Of a stretch of DNA of 64,000 bases, positions 7,335 through 61,994 are shown piece after piece (position 1 is the first letter of the stretch; each line of letters begins with the position of its first letter). Under the pieces are notes generated by a model. That model saw nothing but the letters and a program-made list of their open reading frames with translations, was not told the origin of the DNA and made no database searches. Source of the DNA: Seonamhaeicola sp. (GTDB taxonomy: Bacteria > Bacteroidota > Bacteroidia > Flavobacteriales > Flavobacteriaceae); the NCBI RefSeq assembly GCF_028281565.1, contig NZ_JANQJQ010000018.1, forward strand, positions 1 through 64,000, given 5' to 3'. The position numbers were made by a program, and so were the translations under genes.

Positions 7335-7342
7335 CAATTAAA

Positions 7343-13181: not shown

Positions 13182-13190
13182 GTTTGAGGC

Positions 13191-13235: not shown

Positions 13236-13264
13236 CAAACAACACCTTTACTACCCTAACGTTT

Positions 13265-13300: not shown

Positions 13301-13442
13301 GAATTAAGTTTTTAATTAAACATTAATAAGATACAATTATTCATATTTAAAATTATAATTAACATATGTTAATTTCATTCATTTATTTACTTGATATTAT
13401 ATATATCAAATATTTATGTAATTATTATTCAAAATAAAGCTA

Positions 13443-13540: not shown

Positions 13541-13548
13541 AATCTAAA

Positions 13549-32387: not shown

Positions 32388-33602
32388 ATGATAGGAAAGG
32401 ACGCTTCATACATTAACAAACTGAACAAAATTGAGATTTTAAAAATTATCCGCGATTCGGACTTAACGTCTAGGGCTGAAATCGTTAAGATTACCAAACT
32501 AAGTGCCCCTACGGTCACGAGAATTGTTGATGCTTTGGTAGAATTGGAACTTGTTAAGGTTGTGGGCGATGGTAATTCAACGGGCGGTAGGCCTCCTAAA
32601 ATGCTTCAGTTCGATGGCAGCAACGCCTATGTTATTGGTATAGATTTAGGGGCTACCAGCATTCGGGGTGCCATATCTAACCTCAACGGCGATATAATTA
32701 TCGAAGTAGAGACCCAAACCGATTTGAGTGGCGGCTTTGAGAAAATTTGCGTGCAGATCCATCAGATCATAGAAAAATTAAAGACCAGGTCCAAACTAGA
32801 GGACTCCTTAATTCAAGGAGTTGGTATTGCGGTGGCCGGTTTAATTAATTACGACAACGGCATCATAGAGTATTCGCCTATTTTCAATTGGAATAAAGTA
32901 AACTTCAGGCAAGAGCTACAAAAGTACATAAGCTTGCCAATAATATATGATAATGCCTCTAGGGTAACAGCGTTTGGGGAATTAATCCAAGGACACGGTA
33001 AGCAGTTTAAAAATTTCATTTTTGTAAATGCTGGGTACGGGATTGGCTCCGGGATCGTGGTTGACGGGAAACCGTTTTACGGACACAAAGGCTTTTCGGG
33101 AGAATTCGGGCATATCATTCTTAACGCAGAAAGCGAGCAGGTTGGTAAAGATGGCCTAAGGGGAAGTCTGGAATCGCTGTCATCGGGTTATGCCATTGCC
33201 GAAATTGCCAAAGAAAAAGTTGCCGCAGATCCGAATAGTAAAATACTCGAAAAATCTAATGGCAACATAGCGGACATAACGGCTAAAACCGTGGTGGCTG
33301 CAGCCAAGGAAAATGATCCTTTGGCGGTACAAATTTTTGATGATGCCATGAAGTATTTTGGAATTGGACTGGATGCCTTAATCAAATTATTTGATCCGGA
33401 AGCCATTATATTAACCGGAGGGCTTACAAAAAACGGCGACATATTTTTTGATAAGCTAAAGGAAAACATGGTCCTGAACCGATTTAAGCAATTAGAACGG
33501 GAAGTGCATATCCTGCCCTCCTCTTTTGGGGAAGATGCCTCATTGGTTGGTGCGCTATCCATCATTTTGGACCGCGTTTTCCAATTTGAATTATCTTCTT
33601 AA
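32388..33602 (+). CDS. ROK-family transcriptional regulator, second paralogue
   Basis: 404 residues with the same layout as the regulator at 25224: winged helix (SRAEIVKITKLSAPTVTRIV, about 27-46) and ROK domain (VIGIDLGATSIRG, VNAGYGIGSGIV, GFSGEFGHI). The kinase Asp position reads IYDNASRVTAFGE with Ala, and the zinc-cysteine motif is replaced by VGKDGLRGSLE. Both changes mirror the paralogue, so loss of catalysis predates or accompanies their duplication. It is monocistronic and convergent with the LamG/HWRY gene ending at 33703. Two related sensors could respond to different sugars released from the same polymer. Confidence 0.88.
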   Translation: MIGKDASYINKLNKIEILKIIRDSDLTSRAEIVKITKLSAPTVTRIVDALVELELVKVVGDGNSTGGRPPKMLQFDGSNAYVIGIDLGATSIRGAISNLNGDIIIEVETQTDLSGGFEKICVQIHQIIEKLKTRSKLEDSLIQGVGIAVAGLINYDNGIIEYSPIFNWNKVNFRQELQKYISLPIIYDNASRVTAFGELIQGHGKQFKNFIFVNAGYGIGSGIVVDGKPFYGHKGFSGEFGHIILNAESEQVGKDGLRGSLESLSSGYAIAEIAKEKVAADPNSKILEKSNGNIADITAKTVVAAAKENDPLAVQIFDDAMKYFGIGLDALIKLFDPEAIILTGGLTKNGDIFFDKLKENMVLNRFKQLEREVHILPSSFGEDASLVGALSIILDRVFQFELSS

Positions 33603-42441: not shown

Positions 42442-42478
42442 CAAATATACTACTTTCTTTCTATATGTAAGAAAGTAA
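42442..42478 (-). promoter_or_regulatory. Promoter and operator of the GH3-LamG operon
   Basis: Minus-strand TATATTTG (42449-42442) is a perfect -7 box. Directly upstream, in gene sense, is TTACTTTCTTA, CAT, ATAGAAAGAAA (42478-42454), matching the shared palindrome at 19 of 22 arm positions. A protein bound there would cover the -33 region. Confidence 0.6.
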
Positions 42479-48500: not shown

Positions 48501-48981
48501 TAAGCACGGCACCCGGGGCAAACCTACTAGGATCTTGGCTTTTGGTTGTACCCCCGCGCCAGGCAAAGATCAATCTGGCCGTAACATTAGCGGCTACTTT
48601 GTTTGTGCTGTTCCCAATCTCAAAGGAACCGCCCATTTCACTTACTAGATATTCTGTTCTTAGCTCTGTGTTCACATTGGTGGCATATTGAAGCTTGGCG
48701 CCATTGGCAATGCGAATGGATTTCATTTTCTCTGGAATGATGTCATTTACGGTAACGGTGATGCCATTGGGGATCAGTACCCGTGCATCATCGGCTGGAA
48801 CGGATCCGCCCCAAGTTGCAGCATCACTCCAGTTACCGCTCTGCGCTGCCGTTTTAGTAGCCGTACCAGCTACCTGGACAGGGCCTTGGGCATAGGTTTG
48901 CGATACCACACTGCATACTATGGCTAATAAGAACAGTGATAACCTATGTGTTAGTTTCATTCTTAAATATTTTTTCTTCAT
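45565..48981 (-). CDS. G8-domain beta-helix protein, T9SS-exported (1138 aa)
   Basis: Signal peptide about 1-31. G8 domain about 35-140 (SGNWSDAATWGGSVP, IPNGITVTVND). Parallel beta-helix with RGRYSIHFHRT near 345, VVNNDPGWAYTNHSS, GDGFWVHGTGVTIEGNVV and DLDQYHNTRSWTIENN. From about 894 a cysteine-bearing domain (CPIDALPSN, ETCVGRSNGEI, CERCYEVVIG, KQCEGKL) resembling SprB-type or gliding-motility repeats follows, and then a T9SS tail from about 1062 (FKVFPNPVRSAF to KIIKQ). It shares the CEMIP/TMEM2-like core with four other proteins here but lacks Ig and discoidin domains. It is preceded by both a palindromic operator and a TAGGGT-N16-GTT promoter motif. Confidence 0.85.
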   Translation of the reverse strand: MKKKYLRMKLTHRLSLFLLAIVCSVVSQTYAQGPVQVAGTATKTAAQSGNWSDAATWGGSVPADDARVLIPNGITVTVNDIIPEKMKSIRIANGAKLQYATNVNTELRTEYLVSEMGGSFEIGNSTNKVAANVTARLIFAWRGGTTKSQDPSRFAPGAVLMGPVRMHGAEKTSWTTLAVHPTSGTSQLSLGTTPTGWRVGDELVVAGTDINDYRSDEKVSINSIAGSTVTLSAALTKNHQPPSQLTGMVDVHVSNNTRNVVISSENPSVAALSGTNGFGKPRGHMMFMHNPNVILKYIETENTGRTDKAIDLDDWSVPLEGEEGQPDPRWSTTVPYPAGPGMNPRGRYSIHFHRTLDTNTNKALVEGCVVNNDPGWAYTNHSSNVDFIENVSYEVVGSAYCTEAGDEVGNFLRNIAIRTYNPAEPLNLGRPAGGGLGVEAGRTNGLTDGREQISDFAHQGDGFWVHGTGVTIEGNVVSGCSGHAYIYWTEGLWESLRGRPQMQDNIDLYVDPVQFKDLNAEVKARAAQYSNWIFDVWYILPKPFKDNIGYTSAQGFRGDYIMTEFHEVGETTSIEFNMMPPNYRNTMNLVIENTLLWSIRRTGMQFENCAQITLKNNKVYGYGASTALAPWRPQPNPYPGLLEVEPHSIGLDLDQYHNTRSWTIENNIIAGWDGESQAVTLPINAEVVVNGGTFDNSGTDIFIREVNWAKDWLDRVVNNEEVTDPNNGTRMVIADPTPLDKTTPWRNITIQGNIVFNNPAKNIVLDAQMHLLNNAGDSFALLHPDGSGVKMTGYFLLPDNITLNFGPFNNAKVYFDEQAADFVPVPTTNLLDPLLYESEAKYPERLTPTVFRGKTNQQLQNLYGTSMGGVITPATAVSHAMITGGKVSNVTIEGCPIDALPSNNFSIIGNNETCVGRSNGEIIISSQQVGSYTATVNNNTQSFSSQHKITGLAPGTYTLCIAVPGATVNCERCYEVVIGAGISITGKSSIKNGPGSQGTVMTIDIDKGTAPFTVKVNNKNIGRFSSSKFDIAVSEQDQVEVTSSKQCEGKLAFTAKVLGGFKVFPNPVRSAFNVQVASSKSDKIHLEIYAITGSLVYQGDHSLVGSTARINSSSLKQGIYLVKVYADNKSKVFKIIKQ

Positions 48982-49003
48982 AATTTATTTTTAACCTTTA
49001 ATT

Positions 49004-49033
49004 GTTTGAACAACTAATTCTAAATCCACCCTA
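49004..49033 (-). promoter_or_regulatory. Putative ECF-sigma promoter of the 1138-aa G8 gene
   Basis: In gene sense TAGGGT (49033-49028), 16 bases, GTTCAAAC (49011-49004), 22 bases before the ATG. Same element and spacing at 55379-55408, 60427-60457 and 61027-61056. Confidence 0.55.
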
Positions 49034-49070
49034 CCTTAGAAATTGAAATTATTGGAAACAACATATCATA

Positions 49071-49095
49071 TATATTACTAAATGTTAGAAAGTAA
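49071..49095 (-). promoter_or_regulatory. Palindromic operator upstream of the 1138-aa G8 gene
   Basis: In gene sense TTACTTTCTAA, CAT, TTAGTAATATA. The first half is perfect; the second matches 7 of 11. It lies about 40 bases upstream of the TAGGGT element. Confidence 0.5.
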
Positions 49096-49124
49096 GTTGA
49101 TTACAATCTTCGGATGGTTTTGAT

Positions 49125-52100
49125 TTACTGTTTAACCATTTCAAATATTTTATTAGTTCCTTTGGTATAAACTTTCACTAAATAAGTTCCCTCGGCAAGT
49201 TGGTCGACTGACACCTCTGCTCTTTTATCAAATAATTCATACTTACCTTGAATTATAACCTGTCCGTTCATATTATAGATTTGGATATAGACTTCCTCTA
49301 CATTTGGTTCTAAAGTAACTACCGAAAAACTGTCTTTTACAGGATTAGGAAACAATTCCATGGTCTCAGATAACTTTGCCGTAAATTGGAGTTTCCCTTC
49401 GCAACTCTTATTAGATGTAACCTCAACCTTATCCTTGTCCGCTACAAATATTTCAAACGTTGAATTAGTGTAACTTCCAGCCTCCTTATCATTAACCTTC
49501 ACTTTGAAAGGAGAAGTACCTTCGCCAATATCTACAAGCATTTTACTTTGATTTTGTTTTACCTTTAAACTTGATTTCCCCGTTAGAAGTGTACCCTCAA
49601 TAATTGCCACTTCATAACACCATTCACAAGTCTTTTTAGTCCCCCGTACACCAATACATAACATATGCGTACCGGGAGCAAGGTTACCTATCTTGAATTC
49701 TTTTGAAAAAGCGTGTGTGCTCCCTCCAATGTTCACATAATAAACTTCTGAATTTTGGCTTGTTATAAGTATTTCCCCATTTGAACGTCCTTTACATGTT
49801 TCATTATTGACAACTATATTGAAATTATTGGTTTGCAGATTATCTAAGGGGCAACCATCAATAGTAACTCCGGTAGCCTTACCACCAACAATTTGTGTGT
49901 GCGGAATAGCATTATCTGGGGTAATGGATCCTGCAAACGACTTACCGTTATTTTGAGAACTCAACTGCGTGTTAGTCTTTCCAACAAATCTATTGGGGAT
50001 ACAATCAATGCTTCCTCCTCCCAGAGTGCATTGTGTTTCAGATGTAATTGGAATAAAATCCGAATCTTGGGCATTATAGTAAACCCTTGAGTTTATAAAA
50101 GGTCCAAAGTTAAAGGTTAACTCATGTGGAGTAAAGTACCAATCGCCTTCTTTGGCATCCGCTAATAGTGCAAAACCATCCTGATCGAAAATATGATTAT
50201 GCAGCTGAGGTAACAGTACTATATTTTTGTTTTCATTTAAAAAACGAATGGGCCCAGCTTCTTCTTTAATGGTAACCCCTGGATTGCCATCAAATACCAG
50301 AGGAAAGTCCTCATTGGGTTCATGAGTAGGGTTTTTTATTTCTATGTCCGTTCCCGAATTATTAAACGTACCTCCGTCAATAATTACTTTACCGTTTAAG
50401 GGTGTAGTTAATCCAACGGCATTTCCAGAAAACCCCTCTATTGTATTGTTTATCAGGGTCCAATTATATGTGTTGTGATAAAAATCTAAGTCCATTCCAA
50501 TAGCCACAGGTTCTTCGGCTATTACGCCCGGTAGTGGATTGGTACCATAGTTTTCAAATTCACCAGAGGCATTATATCCCACCACCCGAGAATTCTGAAT
50601 GGTGACATTGGAGGTATGGTTATGTCCAAATCCCCGCCTACGAATATTCCACAATATGGTATTATCAAAAACAAGATTCAATTGTTTTCGGTAAATATCC
50701 GGTGTTAAATTCATCCATTCTTCGGGATCATTGCTTTCCTCCTTACTAAGGTGAAACTCTGTATGTACATAATAGGTATGTACGCCCCTGGCGAAGGTAT
50801 AAGCCGTGTTATTTTTAAAGGGTCTCGGCTGTAAATACCATATATCCAATACAAAGCCCGGGTACTGTGCTTTCCAATCTTTCAATGCTTGATTTAAAAC
50901 TGGGAATTCGTTGGCCGGGACGTGTGTGTCGATATCCCCACGAGCCATGCCCAATCCCTTTTCTATGAGTCCGTCTACCCAATACACGTAGGCATGTCCG
51001 GTTGAACCTGCAACCACATTCCCTTCTACGGTTACCCCTGTTCCATGAAACCAAAAGCCATCTCCTTGCCAGGCAAAATCTTGCCTACCTTCTCTTATAT
51101 CCGCTAATGCCTGGGTGGGACCACCATCAAAATACGAGTTTCTGGGCCTTGGAATGGCGGTCATAGGCTCGGCCGGATTATAGGTCCGTATGGCAATATT
51201 TTCAATAAAGGATCCTGTTTCATTGCCTGATTCTGTACAAAAGGCGCTACCAATCACATCATAACTGACATTCCTTACAAAATTCACCCTCGAAGAATGG
51301 TTAACAAAGCCCCATCCTGGATCGTTATTGACCACACAGCCCTCCACATGTGCCGGATTGGGCAAAAAGGCTTTTGCCGGATAGACACTGGTATCGACTG
51401 CTCCCCTGTGAAAATGAAATGAATAGCGCCCTCTCGGGTTCCTGCCACCATTAGCAATGGGGTTTCCTGTATTACGGCCCCTTGACAAATCTTCAAAGTC
51501 CCAGTCATCGAGTATGATTGACTTATCCGTCCTCCCCGTATTATTGGCTTCAACATATCTTAAATCAACATCTTGATTATGCATGAACATCATGTGGCCT
51601 CGTGGTTTTCGAAAATCGCCACTTATTGAAGTTACACTTGGGTTTTCAGATGTCACTACAATATTCCGAGATATATTAGCAATGTGCACATCGAGGTCCG
51701 AAGCCTGAGACGGCGCCTTATGATCCAATTGTAAAGGAGACTTTATATTAATTACATTACCCGAAATCCCTGTAATTTCAACAACCTCATCACTGGTAAA
51801 GCTATTGATATCTGTTCCGGCCAGGGCCAATTTATCCCCCACCTGCCAGCCTGAAGGTGCCGAATTCAAGACCAATGATGTGGCGCCCTGTGAGGGCTGA
51901 TTAGCGTTATTAAAGGCCAACCAGTTGGTTTTCTCGGCCCCGTGCATTCTTACTGGCCCCATCAGCACTGCACCAGGAGCAAACCTTTCGGGGTCTTCAG
52001 CTTGGGTGGTTCCTCCTCGTTCAGCAAATACGAGACGTGCTTTAACATTTGGAGCTATTTTATTGGAGGCAGTTCCTATTTCAAAAGCACCGCCCATTTC

Positions 52101-52421
52101 ACTCACCAGATACTCTGTTCTTAATTCCGTATTCACACTGGTAGCATATTGCAGTTTAGCGCCATTAGCAATGCGGATGGACTTCATTTCTTCTGAAATC
52201 ATACTGTTGACAGTAATTGTAATCCCGCTTGGAATAAGCACCCGCGCGTCGTTTCCAGGCAACGAACCGCCCCAAGTGGCTGGATCGTTCCAATTCCCGC
52301 TTTGAACGGCTGTTTTTGTGGCCGTTCCTGCCACCTGTATCGGTGTTTGGCCTTTTGTGCAGCTCATGGAACAGATCACAAAAAGGCAGGTTAAAAGAAT
52401 CTGTGGTAGTTTAATATTCAT
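49125..52421 (-). CDS. G8-domain beta-helix protein, T9SS-exported (1098 aa)
   Basis: Close relative of the 1138-residue protein. Signal peptide about 1-24 (with a Cys near the cleavage site, ICSMSCTKG, which could make it a lipoprotein). G8 domain about 28-135 (SGNWNDPATWGGSLP), beta-helix with RGRYSFHFHRG near 332 and VVNNDPGWGFVNHSS, then the same cysteine domain (from about 857: CPLDNLQTN, ETCKGRSNGEI, CEWCYEVAI, KSCEGKL) and a T9SS tail from about 1020 (LFPNPVKDSF to MVKQ). It begins 11 bases after the stop of the 973-residue G8 gene, so the two form an operon. Function as for the family: surface polysaccharide binding or depolymerisation, not proven. Confidence 0.85.
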   Translation of the reverse strand: MNIKLPQILLTCLFVICSMSCTKGQTPIQVAGTATKTAVQSGNWNDPATWGGSLPGNDARVLIPSGITITVNSMISEEMKSIRIANGAKLQYATSVNTELRTEYLVSEMGGAFEIGTASNKIAPNVKARLVFAERGGTTQAEDPERFAPGAVLMGPVRMHGAEKTNWLAFNNANQPSQGATSLVLNSAPSGWQVGDKLALAGTDINSFTSDEVVEITGISGNVINIKSPLQLDHKAPSQASDLDVHIANISRNIVVTSENPSVTSISGDFRKPRGHMMFMHNQDVDLRYVEANNTGRTDKSIILDDWDFEDLSRGRNTGNPIANGGRNPRGRYSFHFHRGAVDTSVYPAKAFLPNPAHVEGCVVNNDPGWGFVNHSSRVNFVRNVSYDVIGSAFCTESGNETGSFIENIAIRTYNPAEPMTAIPRPRNSYFDGGPTQALADIREGRQDFAWQGDGFWFHGTGVTVEGNVVAGSTGHAYVYWVDGLIEKGLGMARGDIDTHVPANEFPVLNQALKDWKAQYPGFVLDIWYLQPRPFKNNTAYTFARGVHTYYVHTEFHLSKEESNDPEEWMNLTPDIYRKQLNLVFDNTILWNIRRRGFGHNHTSNVTIQNSRVVGYNASGEFENYGTNPLPGVIAEEPVAIGMDLDFYHNTYNWTLINNTIEGFSGNAVGLTTPLNGKVIIDGGTFNNSGTDIEIKNPTHEPNEDFPLVFDGNPGVTIKEEAGPIRFLNENKNIVLLPQLHNHIFDQDGFALLADAKEGDWYFTPHELTFNFGPFINSRVYYNAQDSDFIPITSETQCTLGGGSIDCIPNRFVGKTNTQLSSQNNGKSFAGSITPDNAIPHTQIVGGKATGVTIDGCPLDNLQTNNFNIVVNNETCKGRSNGEILITSQNSEVYYVNIGGSTHAFSKEFKIGNLAPGTHMLCIGVRGTKKTCEWCYEVAIIEGTLLTGKSSLKVKQNQSKMLVDIGEGTSPFKVKVNDKEAGSYTNSTFEIFVADKDKVEVTSNKSCEGKLQFTAKLSETMELFPNPVKDSFSVVTLEPNVEEVYIQIYNMNGQVIIQGKYELFDKRAEVSVDQLAEGTYLVKVYTKGTNKIFEMVKQ

Positions 52422-52432
52422 TGTTCATAATT

Positions 52433-55354
52433 TTAATCTTTAACTATTTTAAATATTTTACTGGCGCGATCCATATGCAGTTTTACCAGGTAGATACCAT
52501 TAGATAAACCTGAAACCGGAACCGTTAATTCCGTATTCCCGGCATCTATTGAAGTACGCTTCAACAACTTTCCGGTTAGGGAAAAAATCTCTAGTTTTAC
52601 ACGACTATGGTTCAGGCTGGGTAAATTGATAACAAATTCATCCTTAACCGGATTTGGATATAGTCTTATTTTTTGTAGTGCATTCTCTGAAACAGATAAG
52701 CCATTTCCGTCTACTTTTCCTCCTGTAATCATGGCATGAGTTACAGTGCCAGCCGGCATAATTACACCACCAAATGACGAACCATACTGGGTTTGCAATT
52801 GTTGGTTTGTCTTTCCTATGTATTTTGGATTCACAAAATTTTCGGGGAACAGGTCGCCAACAGGGATTCCAATTGGCCTGCCTAAAGTACTGTTGGGTAC
52901 TGGAATAAAGTCTGCCCGTTGATCATCAAAATAGACTCTGGCATTACTGAATGGGCCAAAATTGAGCGTAATGTTGTCTGGTATCAAGAACCAGCCAGGC
53001 ATTTTAACGCCGCCGTTTAGAATGGCGAATCCATCTTGACCCGGGTTTGTCATATGGTATTGCGGCGCGAGAACAATATTTTTATTCGAATTGTTAAACT
53101 GGATATTACCCTGAATGGTAATGGTTCGCCAGGGCGTCGTTTTCCAAGCTCCAATTGGCAATCCATCCATAGAATCGTCTTCGTAGCTTACTACCCGGTC
53201 CGGCCATGTTTTAGCCCAGTTGGTTTCCCGGATCTTAAGATCAACCCCGCTATTGTCGAACACCCCACCATTAACAACAACGTTCCCATCGTTGACTGGG
53301 AGCGCCACCGCCACGGCACTGCCATCAAAACCTACGACCGTATTGTTAATTAAATTCCAGTTTCTGGTATTGTGGTCGTGATCCAGATCCATGCCCAATA
53401 CGGCAGGTTCTACTTCTATATATTGGGTATACGGATCGTTTAAGGGCGGTTGCCAAGGGGCTACACCTGTATCGGTACCATAGCCGTAAACCTTATTATT
53501 GACCAAGTCTATTTGGGCACAATGGGTAAAGCCAAAACCGACCCGTTTCATACTCCAGAGGGTAGTATTTTCCATCACCATTTTATTGGCTGCGCGATAA
53601 CCCGGAGGTACCAGGTTGAATTCACTTTGGGCTTCGGCATCCGAGAAATCGGTAGCTTCGTGGAACGTGGTCATCATATAATAGCCATGTACACCCCTGG
53701 CCATACTATAAGCCTGATTGTTCTTAAATGGTCTACATTTGATATACCATATATCATAGTTCCAATAAGGATGTGTGGTTTTCCAGGCTTTGAGCTCGGT
53801 GTTTAATGTTTCGAATTCTGCTGCCGGTACATGAATATCGATATCTCCTTTGGTAATACCCAATTGGTGCTCCACCAAGCCTTCTGACCAATACACATAG
53901 GCGTGCCCTGTACTACCGGATACTACATTGTTCTCAACGGTTACACCCGTACTGTGAAACCAGAAACCATCGCCTTGCCAGGCAAAATCGGACAGGTTTT
54001 CCCGAGAATCGGCAATGGCATCGGTTCTACCCTCACCCGAGGAGACCGAAGGACGCCCAGGTTCCATAGGTGTATTGGAATTATAGGTTCTAATAGCAAT
54101 ATTCCCAATAAAGGAACCTATTTCATTTCCAGCTTCCGTGCAATACGCTGAGCCCACGACATCATAGGATACATTGTTCTTAAATTCTACGTTCGATGAA
54201 TGATTGACGTAGCCCCATCCTGGATCGTTGTTAACCACACAACCCTCCACTTTCGCTTGTGGTGGATTTATGGTATAATCGGGCTCTGTGGTCTTAAATT
54301 GGATGGACCTGTGAAAATGGATGGAGTAGCGCCCCCTAGGGTTTTTAAAACCACCGGGAACTTCCGGAAGTGGTTGTGGTGCTCTTGGCAGCCCTGTGGC
54401 ATCCCAATCATCTAAGGGTATTTTCTTATCTGTTCTACCAAGGCCATCGGTTTGGACATATTTGAGAATAACATCGGCATTATGCATAAACATCATATGT
54501 CCGCGAGGTTTATGATACCCGCTTTGCCCAATGGCTATGGTTCGTTTATCCTCCGATGAAATAATGATATTCCTGGTGTTATTGGACACATGAACATCGA
54601 CCAGACTTGCAATTTGGCTGGGTGCCTGATGGCTTCTGGCTAGATTTTCGGATAGGGTGACGGTATTTCCCGAAATACTGCTTATGGTCACCATCTCATC
54701 ACTGGTATAGCTATTGGGGTCTGTACCAGCTACGACCAATTTATCACCTACACGCCATCCACTTGGCGCAGACTTTAAGACCAATTGATTAGCTCCAGCA
54801 GCAGGTTGTACCGATAGGGCGTCCCAACTTGTTTTGTCGGCACCATGCATTCGTACAGGCCCCATAAAGACCGCGCCGGGCACAAAATTGTTTTTGTCTT
54901 GGGCCTTTGAGGTGCCCCCTTTTTCGGCAAAGACCAAACTTGCGGTCACATTGGGATTGATTTTATTGGTTTCTGTACCAATTTCAAAAGCCCCACCCAT
55001 TTCACTTACTAAGAATTCTGTCCTCAATTCGGTATTGACATTGGTGGCATACTGAAGCTTACCACCATTTGCAATTCTAACGGATTTCATCTCTTGGGAT
55101 ATCATACCGTCTACCGTAACCGTTATGCCATTTGGGATGAGCACCCTATCTAAATCTGAAGGAACAGAACCTCCCCAGGTAGCTGCACTGCTCCAATTAC
55201 CACTTTGTACTGCGGTCTTGTTGGCAGTACCTGCTACTTGAACTGGAGTCTGAGCCAATAAGGTAATTACCTGCATTACCATGATAAGTGCTATCCATAA
55301 TTTGCTTATCTTACTTTTTAATAAAAATTTCTCTCTTAAATAGTTTTTTTTCAT
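52433..55354 (-). CDS. G8-domain beta-helix protein, T9SS-exported (973 aa)
   Basis: Shortest G8 paralogue: signal peptide about 1-34, G8 domain about 38-145 (SGNWSSAATWGGSVP), beta-helix to about 880 with RGRYSIHFHRS near 343, VVNNDPGWGYVNHSS and GDGFWFHSTGVTVENNVV, then directly a T9SS tail (LYPNPVKDEF to KIVKD). There are no extra binding domains, so it shows the minimal functional core of the family: G8, helix and sorting tail. It is the first gene of an operon with the 1098-residue paralogue. It is preceded by an operator palindrome and a TAGGGT-N16-GTTTAAAC promoter motif. Confidence 0.85.
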   Translation of the reverse strand: MKKNYLREKFLLKSKISKLWIALIMVMQVITLLAQTPVQVAGTANKTAVQSGNWSSAATWGGSVPSDLDRVLIPNGITVTVDGMISQEMKSVRIANGGKLQYATNVNTELRTEFLVSEMGGAFEIGTETNKINPNVTASLVFAEKGGTSKAQDKNNFVPGAVFMGPVRMHGADKTSWDALSVQPAAGANQLVLKSAPSGWRVGDKLVVAGTDPNSYTSDEMVTISSISGNTVTLSENLARSHQAPSQIASLVDVHVSNNTRNIIISSEDKRTIAIGQSGYHKPRGHMMFMHNADVILKYVQTDGLGRTDKKIPLDDWDATGLPRAPQPLPEVPGGFKNPRGRYSIHFHRSIQFKTTEPDYTINPPQAKVEGCVVNNDPGWGYVNHSSNVEFKNNVSYDVVGSAYCTEAGNEIGSFIGNIAIRTYNSNTPMEPGRPSVSSGEGRTDAIADSRENLSDFAWQGDGFWFHSTGVTVENNVVSGSTGHAYVYWSEGLVEHQLGITKGDIDIHVPAAEFETLNTELKAWKTTHPYWNYDIWYIKCRPFKNNQAYSMARGVHGYYMMTTFHEATDFSDAEAQSEFNLVPPGYRAANKMVMENTTLWSMKRVGFGFTHCAQIDLVNNKVYGYGTDTGVAPWQPPLNDPYTQYIEVEPAVLGMDLDHDHNTRNWNLINNTVVGFDGSAVAVALPVNDGNVVVNGGVFDNSGVDLKIRETNWAKTWPDRVVSYEDDSMDGLPIGAWKTTPWRTITIQGNIQFNNSNKNIVLAPQYHMTNPGQDGFAILNGGVKMPGWFLIPDNITLNFGPFSNARVYFDDQRADFIPVPNSTLGRPIGIPVGDLFPENFVNPKYIGKTNQQLQTQYGSSFGGVIMPAGTVTHAMITGGKVDGNGLSVSENALQKIRLYPNPVKDEFVINLPSLNHSRVKLEIFSLTGKLLKRTSIDAGNTELTVPVSGLSNGIYLVKLHMDRASKIFKIVKD

Positions 55355-55378
55355 TTTCCTTTGATTTTAATTCTTCTT

Positions 55379-55408
55379 GTTTAAACAAAATATTCTCAAT
55401 TCACCCTA
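55379..55408 (-). promoter_or_regulatory. Putative ECF-sigma promoter of the 973-aa G8 gene
   Basis: In gene sense TAGGGT (55408-55403), 16 bases, GTTTAAAC (55386-55379), 24 bases before the ATG at 55354. Confidence 0.55.
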
Positions 55409-55451
55409 TCTTCTAACATCAAAGTATAGCATTCAAAATGTATTTGCAAAA

Positions 55452-55476
55452 ATACTTATTAATTGTTAGAAAGTAA
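55452..55476 (-). promoter_or_regulatory. Palindromic operator upstream of the 973-aa G8 gene
   Basis: In gene sense TTACTTTCTAA, CAA, TTAATAAGTAT. The first half is perfect, the second matches 8 of 11. It lies about 44 bases upstream of the TAGGGT element. Confidence 0.55.
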
Positions 55477-55540
55477 GTTTTTTTCTGTTTTAGTTATTTT
55501 TTTAACATTTTAGTTCCAAAAAAACAATTCTAACATTTTC

Positions 55541-56677
55541 CTAAAACTCAAATCTTAGTCCAATGCCCGCGTAGTAATAATCATAACTTCTAAATGTAAT
55601 TGTGTTTATATTGGTGCGATTAGAATTACGATTATTCACATACATATTTGCCGTTAAGTAAAGCTTCCTTCCCAGTTCGTATTCAATATCAACCTTTAGT
55701 CTGTAATATTTAAAATTTAGTTTACCTAGAATCTCCTCAGCACTATTTGTTGCGTTTAGACCATCAAAATCCCTAATTGTATAACTCCCCTCTGTTTCGA
55801 TTAGCCATTTTTCATTTTTATATCGTAGTTCTAATGATGGTCTTATTTGTCTATATGTAAATGTTCCCTTGTTATTATCCTTTCGCTTTGACCACTCAAC
55901 ACCCCCTCTTAGTCTCCAATTCTTACTAACAGGCCAACGGTAAAAAGGTTCCAATACTATATAACTCCAATCCCGTGTTTCTTTGGGAACTTCGGGCTCA
56001 AAATACGTTCTTTCATATAATCGTTTTGACAATTGAGCTTCAATACCATAGCTGTGCCATCCTTCAGGTCTTTCAAATACGTTTCTGAACACCGTATTAA
56101 TAGTATAGTAGTCATATTGCAAATCGTTTGACTCTGCATCCTGATAATTCCGATTTCCAATTTCAAGGTTAATAAACCCGCGGTGCTGGTCGTATAACCT
56201 AAAAAATAATCCAGCTGAAATATCTAGATGTCTGTACCCTAAAGGCGTTCTAAGTTCATTGTCATCCAAGTTCTCGCCCTCCCGATCCCTTAAATTCCAA
56301 TGAGATGTCAACCAAAGTCTCGTTTTTCTCGAGAAGTTCTTTTCGTATCTGAATCTTGAATAAACCGTATAGAAAGTAGCTTCAGTATCAGATAAAAATA
56401 AACGTCCTTTAGGGTATAATCTCAGACTTATATTTTCATTTTTCCAAAATTTCTTAAAAATCCCTTTAAAACCCATGTCTTGATAAATACTACTTCTTAT
56501 CAAATCATCTTTTCCAAAAAGTTCATCTTCATCAATAAACGAACTTGGTGACCTGAAAATATTGTGCATGTAACCCGATGCCGTCTCCATCTCAAATTCA
56601 GACTGTATTTGTGAAATACCAACCCCAGAGCTTAATAGGCCAATTATTAAAATAAATTGTCTCATTATTAATTTCAT
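55541..56677 (-). CDS. Outer-membrane beta-barrel protein of the pgs-like operon
   Basis: 378 residues with a signal peptide (about 5-22; a second ATG at 56665 is equally possible). The mature protein is a string of amphipathic beta strands with aromatic girdles and ends in the classical outer-membrane C-terminal Phe (YYYAGIGLRFEF). By length it could form a 14- to 18-strand barrel. No family name is recognised. As last gene of the pgsB-pgsC-pgsW operon, it is a candidate outer-membrane exit channel for the polymer. Charged residues are abundant in the predicted strands and loops. Confidence 0.65.
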   Translation of the reverse strand: MKLIMRQFILIIGLLSSGVGISQIQSEFEMETASGYMHNIFRSPSSFIDEDELFGKDDLIRSSIYQDMGFKGIFKKFWKNENISLRLYPKGRLFLSDTEATFYTVYSRFRYEKNFSRKTRLWLTSHWNLRDREGENLDDNELRTPLGYRHLDISAGLFFRLYDQHRGFINLEIGNRNYQDAESNDLQYDYYTINTVFRNVFERPEGWHSYGIEAQLSKRLYERTYFEPEVPKETRDWSYIVLEPFYRWPVSKNWRLRGGVEWSKRKDNNKGTFTYRQIRPSLELRYKNEKWLIETEGSYTIRDFDGLNATNSAEEILGKLNFKYYRLKVDIEYELGRKLYLTANMYVNNRNSNRTNINTITFRSYDYYYAGIGLRFEF

Positions 56678-56716
56678 TAATGAATTGTTAATTGGGAATG
56701 AGGGGATTCCTTGCTA

Positions 56717-57646
56717 TTAGGCTGCATTTATTTTTTTCTCCTGCTTTTTATTTCCAAGAAAAACGCGAATAATGGCAGATTTATCAGAGTTCTTTAAAAC
56801 AATCTCATATTGATTTTTATCTTGAGAAGGAATGTCAATAAAGACCTTCTCTAATGCTCCGGGCATAAGCGCTTTGTCTGTAATATTCTGTACAGCCGCA
56901 GATTTTTTACAAGTAACCTTGTAAGTTTTGATGACCTCGCCATTTTTCTTCAAAGCAAAACGTATCACATTTTCATCATGCATTTTATAGTTAAAATCTG
57001 CCCGAAGAAAAATTCTTAGCTTTTGGCTACTATCGTTTCTGAATTTAAAGCCGCTTTTATTATCAATACGGTAATAGGTTTGTTGTTTTTTATTTTTTTG
57101 GTGTTCAATTTTCACCCTATTTAAATTGGAAATAGACTTCAGCTCCTTCCAAAACAACTTTTTGGTAGGCTGAAAAACAAACCTCACATGGGCTTTTTGT
57201 TTCGTTTTGTATTTATAAAAATTAAGTTGATGTTTACCAGGTGGAATATTAATGACTTCTTTGTCCACTTTACTCGGTGTTCCAGGTAAATTACTTTTAT
57301 AGCTTACCTTTTTCGACATTTCCTGAGGTCCAATCTTTTGGGATATAATACGCTTTCCATCTATAATATACTTAAGATAATAAGGCCTTGAAGCTTTTTG
57401 ATTATCTTCTAATCGCACCCTATTGAACACGATAAGTTTTCCAGGACCGGTAACGGTTATTGAAGTTTTTGTTTTTTCTGAAAGTGCGTAATACACAAAA
57501 TCTGAATCACTGGTCATGTGAACTAAGCTCACAAACTTCTTAGGCTTTATTTCTTTTCTCTCCTGAGCAAAAACTGCGTTGCAAAATGCGAGCAGAAAAG
57601 ATGCCACCAAGACAATTACTAACGAAGATTTTTTAATTTCAATCAT
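56717..57646 (-). CDS. Secreted protein of unknown function in the pgs-like operon
   Basis: 309 residues; signal peptide about 1-27 (LAFCNAVFAQ). The mature part is Lys-rich and predicted mainly beta, with segments such as KTKTSITVTGPGKLIVFNRV, NIPPGKHQLNFYKYKT and FKFRNDSSQKLRIFLRADF. No recognised domain. Its start overlaps the pgsW stop by eight bases (57639-57646), so translation is coupled. A periplasmic, positively charged partner that handles an anionic polymer on its way to the outer-membrane barrel is a reasonable but unproven idea. Confidence 0.6.
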   Translation of the reverse strand: MIEIKKSSLVIVLVASFLLAFCNAVFAQERKEIKPKKFVSLVHMTSDSDFVYYALSEKTKTSITVTGPGKLIVFNRVRLEDNQKASRPYYLKYIIDGKRIISQKIGPQEMSKKVSYKSNLPGTPSKVDKEVINIPPGKHQLNFYKYKTKQKAHVRFVFQPTKKLFWKELKSISNLNRVKIEHQKNKKQQTYYRIDNKSGFKFRNDSSQKLRIFLRADFNYKMHDENVIRFALKKNGEVIKTYKVTCKKSAAVQNITDKALMPGALEKVFIDIPSQDKNQYEIVLKNSDKSAIIRVFLGNKKQEKKINAA

Positions 57647-58751
57647 GATTTTTAATTATTTGGGTTCCTAAAGCGTTTTGTTTTTTATCATAGTACATAA
57701 CGGCAATTATCAGTGTTAGAAAAACAACTGTTGAAACTATTACAGTGGGTAGATCATACTTGTAAGCCCTGTACAAAAGACCTTCTCCTATAGCGGGCAA
57801 CGGAACTGGGTCTCTTGGTAAATCATACCTAGACATTAACCTGCCAATATTTAAAAGATTAATTGTTGGAACGCCTTTTCGCGTCATTTCATAAAGCACC
57901 CCAAGCTTATCTGGAAAATCGCTGAGTTTGGCGTTTTGTTTAAAACCCGACGGAAGCGTTTTAGCATTAGCGTTACTCCCCAGACTAGCCACTCCGCCGC
58001 CAACATTTATGAATAATTTTACGTTATCACCAGACTCAGTTTCAAAAATCTCCATGCGTCTGGCAATGCTCTTTTCCAAACTCCCTTCGTTTATATAAGG
58101 AATCCCATTTCGAAAAATAGCATTCACAGCCAATTCCCGCCCTTCAATACTTAAAGTCCGTCCTAAATCTTGATTACCACCAATGGATGATGCCCTTGGT
58201 AAGAATGAAACCACATTGGCTTCATAGAGTGACTTATGCATATCAAGCCATGTCAAGTTTGGGTCATTTGCACCCCATGAAGACGATGTTACCGATGTCA
58301 CCAAAATCGGTTTCAGCTTAAGAGTTTCAAGAGCTGTACAAACCGCCAAATTAAGCGCTGGAAAAGAGCCTGTAAAGCATAATGCAACGTTATCACCTTC
58401 TTTCAGACCAGCTTCTTTAATTTGCTCGATAATCATGGCCGCAAAGTTTGGGTTTGTGGTAGATAGTTTAATTGGCAATGACCCCCTACCAGAAGTAAGT
58501 TGGGAGAACTGTTGCCCAATAATCCCGGTATTATTAGGGTCATTAATATTATCTATGGCAATTTCATCAGGAAAAAATGTATTTTTTAAATGATGCATCC
58601 CTTTTGCTGCCAATCCGGCAGCTTTCATCTTTTGTTTAAAATACCTTTGCTCTTTAAAGCTCTTGGAGCTTTCAACAATAATTAAAAGTGCAATGGCTAA
58701 GGCACCAAGAATACTGAGCACTAGAGTTGATCTTATGGAAATATTATTCAT
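57639..58751 (-). CDS. Poly-gamma-glutamate system protein PgsW-like
   Basis: About 370 residues from the ATG at 58751; the frame extends to 58793, but the 58751 start avoids overlap with pgsC and gives a clean membrane anchor (TLVLSILGALAIALLII). A long extracytoplasmic domain (GDNVALCFTGSFPALNLAV, NVGGGVASLGSNANAKTLP) and a C-terminal membrane segment (VIVSTVVFLTLIIAVMYY) follow. The pattern and order match the PgsW component found next to PgsB and PgsC. Its exact role in polymer synthesis or export is not established. The stop overlaps the next gene by eight bases. Confidence 0.8.
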   Translation of the reverse strand: MNNISIRSTLVLSILGALAIALLIIVESSKSFKEQRYFKQKMKAAGLAAKGMHHLKNTFFPDEIAIDNINDPNNTGIIGQQFSQLTSGRGSLPIKLSTTNPNFAAMIIEQIKEAGLKEGDNVALCFTGSFPALNLAVCTALETLKLKPILVTSVTSSSWGANDPNLTWLDMHKSLYEANVVSFLPRASSIGGNQDLGRTLSIEGRELAVNAIFRNGIPYINEGSLEKSIARRMEIFETESGDNVKLFINVGGGVASLGSNANAKTLPSGFKQNAKLSDFPDKLGVLYEMTRKGVPTINLLNIGRLMSRYDLPRDPVPLPAIGEGLLYRAYKYDLPTVIVSTVVFLTLIIAVMYYDKKQNALGTQIIKNHD

Positions 58752-58764
58752 AACAAATAGTAGG

Positions 58765-59223
58765 TTAATAAAGTTCAGGTAAGGTTTCTCCAAGAAAACA
58801 GATAATCACCAGTAGTCTTACAATCACAGAAGTCACGGTGAGCATTGCCATGGTTTTGGCAAATCCTTGTTTTGCCGCCCAATGGGCTATCAAGCCGGGA
58901 ATCACCCAACCAATAGCACTAAGTTCAACCGTCGAACTAGGTGTATTGAACACTAAAAAATGATGGGAAACTATTGAAAGAATAGTTCCTATTAATAATG
59001 AAACTACCATTTGTCTCCTTCCAAACAAAAATGTGAACCTTGAAATAAACTTGATTATCAGGAATGTAATGAACGCTATTATTATCAATCCTACAAGGCG
59101 ATCTATTGTGGCCAATTGCAAGGCTACATAACCCGGTACGATTATACCCCCAGCGGCCATTCCAAATTTTTCTATAAAGAATAAACTTATTATTATTCCA
59201 AGTGTAACAGATAATTCTATCAT
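58765..59223 (-). CDS. Poly-gamma-glutamate synthase subunit PgsC/CapC
   Basis: 152 residues, almost entirely hydrophobic, with four to five membrane spans (IELSVTLGIIISLFFIEK, GLIIIAFITFLIIKF, GTILSIVSHHF, MLTVTSVIVRLLVIICFLG). IVPGYVALQL and WVIPGLIAHW are typical PgsC words. It forms the membrane part of the PGA synthase with PgsB. It starts 9 bases after pgsB. Confidence 0.88.
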   Translation of the reverse strand: MIELSVTLGIIISLFFIEKFGMAAGGIIVPGYVALQLATIDRLVGLIIIAFITFLIIKFISRFTFLFGRRQMVVSLLIGTILSIVSHHFLVFNTPSSTVELSAIGWVIPGLIAHWAAKQGFAKTMAMLTVTSVIVRLLVIICFLGETLPELY

Positions 59224-59232
59224 AAAGACATT

Positions 59233-60408
59233 TTAATTTTGTTTATGCTTTTTCTCAAAATATTGGGCTAATTCTGCGCCGCCTACTCCCATATTTCCAA
59301 TTGCTAAAACCGTGGTTTTACAGTGAGAAGCATGACATATATCTATAAATTGATCATGAGTTGACTTCTCTCCAATAGCGTGTATTTTTTCTTTTGGAAC
59401 ACCCTTTTTAATGCACATTTGAAATACATTATCCAATGATTCACCGATCAAGCCTACACTTCCATAATCTAACAAAGCAATCATTTTCACTAATTGAACA
59501 GCCCGATCTTGACGGTCTTTTCTTGTATTTAAAACAATCATGATATGTTCATCAGGATCACATTGCTCTTTGATGGACTTCCATATCATTAATGTTGATT
59601 CCGGATCATTGGCCGCTAGGGCATTGTAGAAAAAAATACGTTTATCTTCTGCATTTATGGTGTAGCGTCTTAACACCCCTTCGTCTGGTATGCTGCGCTT
59701 CATTTCCTTTAATGCAGATGCTCTTTCTACACCTAACTCTGAACAAATATCCAGGGCAAGGGCCACATTATCTTTATGCTCTATATAGGTAAACCCTTGC
59801 ATATCCGTTTTCGATATAGAAGCCGCCTCACTTTTTCTAATTGTTGTTTTTCTTCGTTTTGCCACCTTATTCATATAGCCCAAATACCTATTCTCTGAAG
59901 TGAATAATTGAGACTTCTTTGGAATAGTCCTACAAATGGCCTTGGCAACATCATCAAGGGTGGGGCCCATAACATCAAGATGATCTAGCCTAATATTAGT
60001 TATAACACCTATGTTCGCTTTTACCATTTGGTGTTCTGTGATTTTTTGATAAATAGGCTGAAGGGCCATGCACTCAATAATTAACACCTCTGCTTTTTGT
60101 TGTGAGCAATATTTTATAATATCCAGTTGTTCCAAAATATTAGCCTTTTCTTTTCTGTGAACCACAGCTTCACTACCATCTGGAAGTATTATCCTTGGAA
60201 AAGTGCCTGTTACTTTTGTTATGGTTTTGAGTCCACCTGCTCTTAGGCCAGCTCCAATTAATCGGGTAACACTAGATTTTCCTCTTGTACCGTTAATATG
60301 GATACGTATTGGAATTGCACTTAGATATTTTTGATGCAACCTATACTCTATTGCACCATAAATTGTAATTGCAACCGTAAGACCAATAATGACAATTAAG
60401 CTCAACAT
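59233..60408 (-). CDS. Poly-gamma-glutamate synthase subunit PgsB/CapB
   Basis: Mur-ligase-like ATP-dependent amide ligase, about 391 residues. An N-terminal membrane segment (LSLIVIIGLTVAITIYG) is followed by the nucleotide loop HINGTRGKSSVTRL, ECMALQPIYQ and ITNIRLDHLDVMG, all hallmarks of PgsB/CapB. The frame opens at a TTG at 60420, but ATG at 60408 has a good GAAGGA ribosome site 5 bases upstream and is preferred. With PgsC it would polymerise glutamate (or a related acid) through the gamma-carboxyl group at the inner membrane. No PgsA/CapA-type protein is in the window. The promoter-like TAGGGT-N16-GTTTTAAAC lies 18 bases upstream. Confidence 0.9.
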   Translation of the reverse strand: MLSLIVIIGLTVAITIYGAIEYRLHQKYLSAIPIRIHINGTRGKSSVTRLIGAGLRAGGLKTITKVTGTFPRIILPDGSEAVVHRKEKANILEQLDIIKYCSQQKAEVLIIECMALQPIYQKITEHQMVKANIGVITNIRLDHLDVMGPTLDDVAKAICRTIPKKSQLFTSENRYLGYMNKVAKRRKTTIRKSEAASISKTDMQGFTYIEHKDNVALALDICSELGVERASALKEMKRSIPDEGVLRRYTINAEDKRIFFYNALAANDPESTLMIWKSIKEQCDPDEHIMIVLNTRKDRQDRAVQLVKMIALLDYGSVGLIGESLDNVFQMCIKKGVPKEKIHAIGEKSTHDQFIDICHASHCKTTVLAIGNMGVGGAELAQYFEKKHKQN

Positions 60409-60426
60409 AATTTCCTTCAAAATTTA

Positions 60427-60457
60427 GTTTAAAACAACCAGCACAAAATTTACCCTA
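60427..60457 (-). promoter_or_regulatory. Putative ECF-sigma promoter of the pgs-like operon
   Basis: In gene sense TAGGGT (60457-60452), 16 bases, GTTTTAAAC (60435-60427), 18 bases before the preferred pgsB ATG. Confidence 0.55.
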
Positions 60458-60479
60458 CCTTTTTTTTGAAAAAAAGAAT

Positions 60480-60487
60480 TATGTTTG
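60480..60487 (+). promoter_or_regulatory. -7 box of the sigma-factor gene
   Basis: TATGTTTG matches TAnnTTTG exactly and lies 18 bases before the sigma factor ATG. No TTG is present at the usual distance upstream. It suggests housekeeping transcription of the sigma gene itself. Confidence 0.4.
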
Positions 60488-60505
60488 CTTAATATTTTTT
60501 TCTAA

Positions 60506-61024
60506 ATGACCCCTAAGCCAGATTCTATTTGCCAGAATTATATTTTTGAAAAAGTCTTTAAGGACTATTCTAAAATGATTCGGAATTTCATTTATTCTAA
60601 ATGTGGGAATTTGGATTTGGCTGAAGATTTAACCCAAGATGCATTTGTTAAATTATGGAATAATTGCTCCAAAGTTTCTTTAGAAACTGTTAAGGGCTAT
60701 CTTTTTACTTTAGCTAAAAATTCTTTTCTAAATGAGGTAAAGCATCAGAAAGTAGTTCTAAAATATCAGAACACTAAAAACAGCGCTCAAAATAATGAAG
60801 ACCCAGAATTTGTTTTGCGAAAAAAAGAATTTCAAAATGAGCTAAATAGGGCTATTAATAACCTTTCGGAAAAACAACGTGAAGTCTTTTTGCTAAATAG
60901 GATAGATAAAAAAAAGTACAGCGAAATAGCAGAATTATTGGGGCTTTCGGTCAAGGCCGTTGAAAAAAGAATGCATGCAGCTTTGGTCAGTTTAAGAAAG
61001 GATGTAAAAAATTATAAAATATAA
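60506..61024 (+). CDS. ECF RNA polymerase sigma factor, FecI-like
   Basis: 172 residues with the two ECF domains: region 2 (about 25-90; NLDLAEDLTQDAFVKLWNN) and region 4 (about 115-165; LSEKQREVFLLNRIDKKKY, then EIAELLGLSVKAVEKRM, the helix-turn-helix). It would direct RNA polymerase to special promoters when released by the anti-sigma factor encoded next. The four TAGGGT-N16-GTT elements close by are candidate targets, including the one in front of fecR. Confidence 0.93.
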   Translation: MTPKPDSICQNYIFEKVFKDYSKMIRNFIYSKCGNLDLAEDLTQDAFVKLWNNCSKVSLETVKGYLFTLAKNSFLNEVKHQKVVLKYQNTKNSAQNNEDPEFVLRKKEFQNELNRAINNLSEKQREVFLLNRIDKKKYSEIAELLGLSVKAVEKRMHAALVSLRKDVKNYKI

Positions 61025-61026
61025 AG

Positions 61027-61056
61027 TAGGGTTTTTTGGAAATTAGAAGTTCTAAA
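61027..61056 (+). promoter_or_regulatory. Putative ECF-sigma promoter of fecR-TonB receptor genes
   Basis: TAGGGT (61027-61032), 16 bases, GTTCTAAA (61049-61056), 23 bases before the fecR ATG. It lies between sigma and anti-sigma genes, so it would amplify the anti-sigma/receptor pair when the sigma factor is active. Confidence 0.55.
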
Positions 61057-61079: not shown

Positions 61080-61994
61080 ATGGAGGAACAGTTTGACGAT
61101 ACTTTTTTAGCACGCTGGCTTGCCAATGAGCTTTCAGAAAAAGAACTTGAAAGTTTCAAGGGTTCTGAGGCCTACAAGGAGTATTCCGAGATTATTGATT
61201 CCTTAGATAACGCAGAATTCCCGTCTTATGACTTAAATTATAATTTTGAGGCAACCTTAAAAAAAATCGAAAAATCAAAAAATCAAAACCATGGTACCAG
61301 GCGTTTGATTTTAAATTGGTCGTATGGAATTGCTGCAGCATTGGTTTTATGCTTTGGTTATTTTTTGTTTTTCGATTATTCTAACTTCAAGACCAATGCA
61401 ACAGAGCAAATGGCATTTATTTTGCCAGATAGCTCAAAAGTAAATCTCAATGCCGGTTCTAAAATCTCGTTTAAATCATTTAATTGGGAGAAAAACAGAA
61501 CGTTAAAATTACAGGGAGAAGCTTTTTTTGAGGTTAAAAAAGGGGCCTCATTCACTGTAAATACAAAAGAAGGGCAAGTTGTAGTTTTAGGAACTAAATT
61601 CACCGTGAACTCCAGAGATAGTCTTTACAGCGTATCCTGTTTTGAGGGGAAAGTAGAAGTCTTAATTGAAAATAAAACACCTATTATTTTAAACAAAGGC
61701 GATGCAGTAACCCTTCAAAAAGACACATTAGAAGCATCTAATTTTAACAAAACAAGCCCAGTTTGGTTAGAAGACAAAAGTTCATTTACCAAAATCTCAA
61801 TCTTTGAGGTGGTTTCTGAATTAGAACGTCAGTTTGGGGTAAGCATTCAAGGTAAATCCAATTTAAGACCTGCCTATTTTTCTGGGCAATTTTCGCATAA
61901 CAGCTTAGAAAAAGCCCTCAAGACCATCTTTACCGCCATGGATATTCCTTATGAGTTTAAAGATAAGAACAGTATTTACATTCTACCCTATTAA
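61080..61994 (+). CDS. FecR-type anti-sigma factor
   Basis: 304 residues. Cytoplasmic N-terminal part (about 1-78) for sigma binding, one membrane helix (WSYGIAAALVLCFGYFLFF, about 81-99), then the periplasmic FecR domain (AFILPDSSKVNLNAGSKI, GEAFFEVKKGASFTVNTKEG, VLGTKFTV, about 115-210) and a C-terminal DUF4974-like domain (ISIFEVVSELERQFGVSI to end). It relays the signal of the TonB receptor encoded next (overlap by one base, TAATG) to the sigma factor. Confidence 0.93.
   Translation: MEEQFDDTFLARWLANELSEKELESFKGSEAYKEYSEIIDSLDNAEFPSYDLNYNFEATLKKIEKSKNQNHGTRRLILNWSYGIAAALVLCFGYFLFFDYSNFKTNATEQMAFILPDSSKVNLNAGSKISFKSFNWEKNRTLKLQGEAFFEVKKGASFTVNTKEGQVVVLGTKFTVNSRDSLYSVSCFEGKVEVLIENKTPIILNKGDAVTLQKDTLEASNFNKTSPVWLEDKSSFTKISIFEVVSELERQFGVSIQGKSNLRPAYFSGQFSHNSLEKALKTIFTAMDIPYEFKDKNSIYILPY

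Follow-up and report, generated by a model that had tools for sequence, protein, structure and literature searches.

In Escherichia coli, FecI/FecR/FecA surface signalling is directed at ferric citrate uptake. Here we describe a locus of similar organization in a stretch of DNA from Seonamhaeicola sp. (assembly GCF_028281565.1, contig NZ_JANQJQ010000018.1, positions 1-64,000, forward strand; these 64,000 nucleotides (nt) are called the window below), together with a bipartite element, TAGGGT-N16-GTTYWAA. To judge from the sequence, this element is very probably a promoter, with TAGGGT at -35 and GTTYWAA at -10 separated by 16 bases, of the extracytoplasmic function (ECF) sigma factor encoded at 60506-61024, and a poly-gamma-glutamate synthase (pgs) operon would be its conserved target. 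Like the FecI/FecR/FecA system, the window encodes an ECF sigma factor, a FecR-domain anti-sigma factor and a receptor with an N-terminal FecR_C-type domain in a row. It differs in that the divergent target is the pgs operon, and in that the sigma gene lacks an ECF element of its own.

In Bacteroides thetaiotaomicron, an ECF sigma factor is linked to capsule loci (BT0248; Martens 2009 as cited in PMC12596196). As in the window, an ECF sigma factor is thereby tied to surface-polymer synthesis, but the B. thetaiotaomicron capsules are polysaccharides and the effect of BT0248 is negative, whereas in the window the polymer would be gamma-glutamyl and the element stands before the synthase (PMC12596196). 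Promoters of Bacteroidota ECF sigma factors have been called hard to predict without mapped transcription starts (PMC3878776), and as of 2020 a motif was known for none of the B. thetaiotaomicron ECF sigma factors (PMC7366714). Two B. thetaiotaomicron promoters carry TGTT near -10, with a MEME motif that was not significant (PMC12596196). Further proposed ECF promoters are SM6 of Flavobacterium psychrophilum, with a CGT box in the -10 region (PMC9723704), and PM2 of B. thetaiotaomicron, with boxes near -10 and -30 (PMC7366714). SM6, PM2 and the window element are alike in being proposed Bacteroidota ECF promoters, compared here by description; unlike SM6, the window has GTTYWAA as its proposed -10 box, and CGT occurs in none of its five site boxes.

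A TAGGGT-N16-GTT-type ECF promoter was not found in the literature searched, outside which the main ECF classification lies, and it may therefore be in print; nor did we find there a FecI-type sigma factor connected with pgs. The system is of a known kind, with a promoter family and a pgs connection not found in the literature searched.

The sigma gene, its two partners and the predicted elements are arranged as follows (scores refer to the weight matrix described below).

60506-61024, plus strand: FecI-type ECF sigma factor, 172 residues; Sigma70_r2 and r4_2 over the Pfam cut-off, TIGR02985 at 130.3 bits (cut-off 126.4)
60480-60487, plus strand: TATGTTTG, a primary-sigma box of the TAnnTTTG type, 26 nt before the sigma ATG
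61080-61994, plus strand: FecR-type anti-sigma factor, 304 residues; FecR and FecR_C over cut-off, and hydropathy
61994-64000, plus strand, continuing to contig position 64351: TonB-dependent receptor, 785 residues; Plug, FecR_C and tblastn
61027-61055, plus strand: predicted ECF-type promoter element of fecR and the TonB receptor gene; exact match, ATG 24 nt past the end of the box
60429-60457, minus strand: predicted ECF-type promoter element of the pgs operon; exact match, matrix score 26.1 (the best)
55380-55408, minus strand: predicted ECF-type promoter element of the gene for a 973-residue G8 protein; exact match, matrix score 15.8
49005-49033, minus strand: predicted ECF-type promoter element of the gene for a 1138-residue G8 protein; exact match, matrix score 15.5
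396-424, minus strand: fifth element, target unsure; exact match, matrix score 22.1, contig overlap (see below)

The FecR protein has a single hydrophobic stretch near residues 80-98, as seen by hydropathy and as expected of an anti-sigma factor that spans the membrane, and scores far below the E. coli FecR equivalog NF007296 (42 bits, cut-off 385). The start of the receptor gene overlaps the fecR stop. The portion of the receptor within the window matches Plug (41.4 bits) and, at its N-terminus, FecR_C (28.4 bits), both over cut-off; it is further supported by tblastn to the receptors of sister loci, two of which match a barrel model. We also considered that the receptor might be missing and ruled this out: the gene runs off the window, hence the lack of a long open reading frame (ORF) after fecR, and tblastn recovers it. 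An earlier note on this DNA had postulated an outer-membrane transducer; the TonB-dependent receptor encoded directly after fecR, which carries the FecR_C-type domain at its N-terminus, is such a protein.

The window holds five exact TAGGGT-N16-GTTYWAA matches, against a mean of 0.04 in 100 dinucleotide shuffles (largest count 1). The earlier note had reported four of them. All four are exact matches, although their far ends had been placed one or two bases off, and the fifth (396-424, minus strand) had been missed. The distance to the start codon, given there as 18-24 nt, is indeed short and nearly constant, but measures 20-25 nt (where the 7-base box ends, 24 nt remain to the ATG of fecR, 20 to that of pgsB, 25 to that of the 973-residue and 23 to that of the 1138-residue G8 gene). 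We derived a weight matrix from 18 elements, all lying outside the window and two of them at a locus on contig C23 of the same genome; it ranks the five sites top (26.1, 22.1, 15.8, 15.5 and 14.6). The next window site reaches 5.9 and the best site in six Markov null windows 11.9 with the same matrix; the scan gave no sixth window site above background. Since the form of the matrix (TAGGGT-N16-GTT) came from the finding itself, this exercise tests the placement of the sites and not their form.

In the whole genome, with spacers of 15-17 bases, there are 14 matches against 3 for a backward-read control pattern. Those with spacer 16 are mostly intergenic (8 of 10), and all four with spacer 15 or 17 lie inside ORFs. 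Three of the intergenic spacer-16 sites are outside the window; their distances to an ATG, 98, 103 and 120 nt, exceed those of the window's four. A looser pattern, TAGGGT-N15-TGTTNNA, occurs 131 times (forward plus reverse) in 39 genomes against 69 for the control, and 16 against 5 times in the window's own genome. One may argue that the matches arise by chance in AT-rich DNA, and in the genome scan loose matches (GTTNNAA with one mismatch) show no excess over the control (170 versus 186). We nevertheless give this explanation a negligible probability: it is ruled out by the five exact sites against 0.04 expected, together with the conservation of the element in other genomes.

That conservation was assessed beside related sigma genes. 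The sigma protein was searched in the 39 genomes (own included), 18 of which gave a match at 1e-20 or better. Thirty loci were taken and one (L085), being incomplete, was dropped, leaving 29, which comprise the window's own locus, that of the C23 paralogue and 27 loci of other genomes. The strict form TAGGGT-N16-GTTNNA occurs on the fecR side in 8 of the 29 and on the divergent side likewise in 8, for a summed expectation of 0.01 each. Other loci mostly carry variants, namely GTAGGA[AG]...TGTTWTA, GTAGGGT...TGTCTTA or TCAGGGA...TGTTATA. With a relaxed element (GTAGG[GA]-N16-TGT[TC]-like), counted where no more than 5 of 100 shuffles scored as high as its best match, the fecR side is positive in 23/29 loci and the divergent side in 22/29, all with spacer 16. 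In 24 of the 29 loci, counting from base six of the box, the fecR ATG follows a variant after 6-25 nt, with a median of 18. The element or a variant of it is thus present beside most of these related sigma genes, with its spacer fixed.

The -35 variant broadly follows the sigma tree. Among 36 sigma proteins, a 17-member clade (support 100/97) contains all 13 rows labelled GTAGGA[AG]; besides these it holds a single TCAGGGA row, a further row with no clear motif and two unlabelled rows from the window's own genome. Outside this clade, GGA[AG] occurs in no labelled row. Taken with the fixed spacer and the position shortly before fecR, this retention beside related sigma genes supports the earlier note's proposal of a -35/-10 pair for an alternative sigma factor, here the neighbouring FecI-type one. 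Bipartite sites with fixed spacing can also be operators, and the element might then be a transcription-factor operator or an RNA leader signal instead of a promoter. We consider this very improbable, given that the boxes lie on one face 16 apart, that the distance to ATG is fixed and short, that the variants broadly follow the sigma tree and that a primary-sigma box is found on none of the 29 fecR sides.

The primary-sigma box, for which TAnnTTTG is the type used in Bacteroidota, is found instead before the sigma gene. It occurs upstream of that gene in 14/29 loci, against 3.1 expected, in 12 of the 14 within 55 nt and in two at about 120 nt; on the fecR side it occurs in 0/29, against 2.5 expected. 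Among the 25 best matrix sites of the window, none is an ECF element upstream of the sigma gene. The sigma gene therefore seems to stand outside its own regulon, and transcription by the housekeeping polymerase would give a basal amount of its product.

On the divergent side of the window lies the pgs operon, which comprises five genes.

59233-60408, minus strand: PgsB, poly-gamma-glutamate synthase; TIGR04012 at 410.9 bits (cut-off 222.7)
58765-59223, minus strand: PgsC; TIGR04011 at 116 bits (cut-off 96.45), Pfam CapC
57639-58793, minus strand: poly-gamma-glutamate system protein; TIGR04332 at 303.9 bits (cut-off 100)
56717-57646, minus strand: predicted exported beta-rich protein, 309 residues; conserved in pgs loci L174, L175, L185-L190 and L193
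55541-56677, minus strand: predicted outer-membrane barrel, 378 residues; OMP_b-brl below cut-off, conserved in L174, L175, L185 and L186

As in known PgsBC poly-gamma-glutamate synthases, PgsB and PgsC pass the NCBIfam equivalog cut-offs. Unlike in those systems, no PgsA-type match was found, and PgsB and PgsC are followed by the TIGR04332 protein, the 309-residue exported protein and the barrel; the search for PgsA, with Pfam and NCBIfam models, was confined to the proteins of the operon. Structure models of the 309- and 378-residue proteins are of low confidence (mean predicted local distance difference test scores of 62.9 and 61.6). With the model of the barrel, Foldseek returned many porins, at TM scores of at most 0.37 among the 50 matches listed.

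PgsB is rare in the family, exceeding its cut-off in 2 of 299 genomes (own included); another genome has a partial PgsB at a contig end, and weak matches, all below cut-off, occur in 270 of the 299. A scan of 84,980 species genomes with two peptide patterns, which misses relatives without these patterns and from which records near the window's genome were possibly excluded, yielded 25 pgs loci. In three of these, from Kordia sp. NORP58 and two Winogradskyella, the whole pgs operon occurs together with the sigma, FecR and receptor genes, at identities to the window of 50-61% for sigma, 34-48% for FecR and 40-46% for the receptor. The arrangement is divergent in Winogradskyella, as in the window, and on one strand in Kordia. 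This joint recurrence, seen in two arrangements, is our best evidence for a connection between system and operon, and it supports the proposed link to polymer synthesis. Furthermore, TAGGGT-N16-GTT precedes the pgsB ATG by 32, 25 and 25 nt in these three loci (L184, L185 and L186), with GTTTTT as the second box in Winogradskyella; on the fecR side, Kordia has TAGGGA...GTTTTA. In the sigma tree, the window protein groups with the two pgs-linked Winogradskyella sigma factors, with modest support (83/92). A sigma match was found at none of the other 22 pgs loci, several of which end near pgsB, so that absence in those says little; ten of these 22 are titled Cloacimonadota or Cloacimonetes. One further arrangement was seen at L187, from a metagenome-assembled genome of Flavobacteriia, where a pgs operon is followed by a distant FecR/TonB-receptor pair with 26-27% identity (6583-16201). 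This is perhaps another pairing of pgs with FecR and a receptor; no such element was seen there before pgsB.

Several observations weigh against assigning the element and the pgs operon to the window's sigma factor. The relaxed motif was defined after the loci had been viewed, and ties in the scan favour spacer 16. No significant element was found on 6/29 fecR sides and 7/29 divergent sides: L063, L066, L076 and L083 have none on either side, L086 and L088 are non-significant on both sides, although a variant is visible there by eye, and L062 lacks one on the divergent side only. The correspondence between variants and tree is broken by L074, a member of the 17-protein clade that combines a GTAGGAG element with a divergent GTAGGGT...TGTC element, and by TGTC, which occurs at two places in the tree, in the sisters L082 and L087 (support 100/99) and separately in L064. 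Among the pgs-linked systems, the Kordia sigma factor branches elsewhere than with that of the window. The fecR side of the Winogradskyella loci is degenerate, with a TGGGGT form in L186 (by eye), and in L185 a 250-residue ORF (8473-9225, minus strand; by eye) lies between the element and fecR. As an aside, such a 250-residue ORF between the sigma gene and fecR is present in Winogradskyella Bin3 (L185) and not in W. haliclonae.

A last point against it concerns the paralogue on C23, whose sigma factor is 57% identical to that of the window and carries TAGGGT-N16-GTTTTA on both sides. With the same kind of element, it may share targets with the window's sigma factor. Taken further, the elements would be read by several paralogous sigma factors, chiefly the one on C23, in a shared response and not as a separate regulon of the window's sigma factor; some TAGGGT-N16-GTTATA sites beside longer FecR genes (for example C26 188729-188757) fit this too. 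We regard such sharing as possible but doubtful, since, of the ten exact GTTYWAA sites, five are grouped about the window's sigma gene, both C23 elements deviate from GTTYWAA past GTTTTA, and in three other genomes pgs is likewise paired with a sigma system of this kind.

If the window's own sigma factor reads the element, the locus could work as follows. The primary sigma factor would provide for basal production of the ECF sigma factor, which FecR would hold or control. Upon arrival of a ligand at the TonB-dependent receptor, FecR would release or activate the sigma factor, which would then transcribe fecR and the receptor gene, providing feedback via the anti-sigma factor and the receptor. 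It would also transcribe the divergent pgsB-pgsC-TIGR04332-309-OMP378 operon, leading to a poly-gamma-glutamate polymer, and, in this genome, probably two operons for G8 proteins with type IX secretion system (T9SS) tails. Directly visible in the sequence are the elements, where they stand and how their boxes are spaced, and their retention beside related sigma genes and ahead of pgsB; we infer the recognition of the element by the sigma factor, the flow of the signal, the making and export of the polymer and the membership of the G8 operons; for the release by FecR, the ligand and the export of the polymer, the model would be the known FecI/FecR/FecA systems.

The G8 genes concerned are three.

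52433-55354, minus strand: G8 protein of 973 residues with T9SS tail; G8, CEMIP_beta-hel and Por_Secre_tail over cut-off
49125-52421, minus strand: G8 protein of 1098 residues with T9SS tail (Pfam); 11 bases after the 973-residue gene, without an element of its own
45565-48981, minus strand: G8 protein of 1138 residues with T9SS tail (Pfam)

The window contains every one of the genome's five G8 matches (7343-18789, plus strand, and 45565-55354, minus strand), in proteins that are 45-60% identical over their shared part, among genes for LamG, fucosidase, sulfatase and GH3 proteins. A G8 match occurs in 27 of 397 family genomes.

Aligned over 183 columns, the two G8 upstream regions together with the adjoining first part of each gene share 69% identity. 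The two elements therefore probably derive from one duplication event, and the four sites first reported amount to about three independent ones. In other genomes, the element was found in sense before a G8 domain at 0 of 28 fetched loci (of 31 places); for long proteins, the flank examined may not reach as far as the start of the gene.

In addition, a partly palindromic sequence resembling TTACTTTCTAACANTTAGTAA stands upstream of each G8 element (49075-49095 and 55456-55476, both minus strand); near matches precede a GH3 gene (42458-42478, minus strand) and occupy 53-73 (plus strand). The pattern, which was derived from the two G8 sites, has eight places genome-wide against one for the control, one of the eight being the contig overlap; the bare TTACT-N11-AGTAA palindrome is weakly enriched (7 versus 3.0). 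Two ROK-family regulators are encoded in the window (25224-26456 and 32388-33602), and the sequence resembling TTACTTTCTAACANTTAGTAA is possibly the operator of one of them. It is a matter of speculation that a sugar regulator may share control of the G8 operons.

On these grounds the G8 elements might be duplicated copies of one ECF promoter, or dormant, with the G8 genes run mainly by a carbohydrate regulator at the palindrome. The similarity of the upstream regions, the lack of the element at the G8 loci elsewhere, the shared palindrome and the two ROK regulators all speak for this. Nevertheless, we think it unlikely: neither copy has lost TAGGGT, spacer 16 or GTTY, the distances to ATG being 25 and 23 nt, and the G8 genes at 7343 and 13549 (plus strand) are without the element, which is thus not a fixed part of G8 genes. 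We therefore lean towards the two G8/T9SS operons being transcribed by the window's sigma factor as well, in this genome. The G8 part of the regulon suggested earlier is nevertheless the weaker one, given two elements of likely common origin, the 0/28 count and the second shared sequence upstream.

The fifth element (396-424, minus strand) has no ORF behind it within the window. Bases 1-96 of the window are identical to the last 96 bases of contig C47, and the two contigs are probably neighbours. At the end of C47, on the strand of the fifth element, stand a gene for a 298-residue protein and SusC-like, SusD and GH95 genes in a row; the 298-residue protein is without a Pfam match and has a lipoprotein-like start (by eye). 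The fifth element may possibly serve this lipoprotein/SusC/SusD/GH95 operon, which would begin 395 nt on if the contigs adjoin.

There is an even chance, in our estimate, that these loci represent a modular family of surface-signalling sigma factors in Flavobacteriaceae. Its members would use a promoter dialect (GTAGGGT, GTAGGA[AG] or TCAGGGA with TGTT or TGTC) at a fixed spacing, with the sigma gene outside the regulon and the receptor, the anti-sigma factor and a swappable divergent cargo inside it. That cargo would be surface lipoproteins in many relatives, and pgs with its own barrel in the lineage of the window, in Winogradskyella and, rearranged, in Kordia; the G8 operons would be an extension in the present genome.

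The window offers a case in which an ECF promoter could be derived from sequence alone: its spacer is constant at 16 bases, its -35 variants approximately track the sigma tree, and relatives allow its targets to be read off. If true, the regulons of many paralogous flavobacterial sigma factors would become predictable and the code between sigma factor and promoter testable. It is also a recurring case of a poly-gamma-glutamate synthase, rare in the family, adjoining an outer-membrane signalling system; if this reading holds, polymer synthesis would answer to an outer-membrane receptor.

Two further observations concern related loci. From sister sigma loci, 23 neighbour proteins were picked by hand; ten of these, encoded beside the sigma genes (L093, L095-L098 and L100-L104), belong to a single family whose members begin like lipoproteins. 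Of them, L093, L095, L096, L098 and L103 gave no Pfam match over cut-off. Finally, TAGGGT-N16/17-GTTATA sites were seen on contig C26 (188729-188757 and 178673-178701, both minus strand) and near position 28708 of contig C43. The first of these and the C43 site lie near genes of longer FecR proteins, and a related form of the promoter may serve FecI/FecR pairs of that longer kind.

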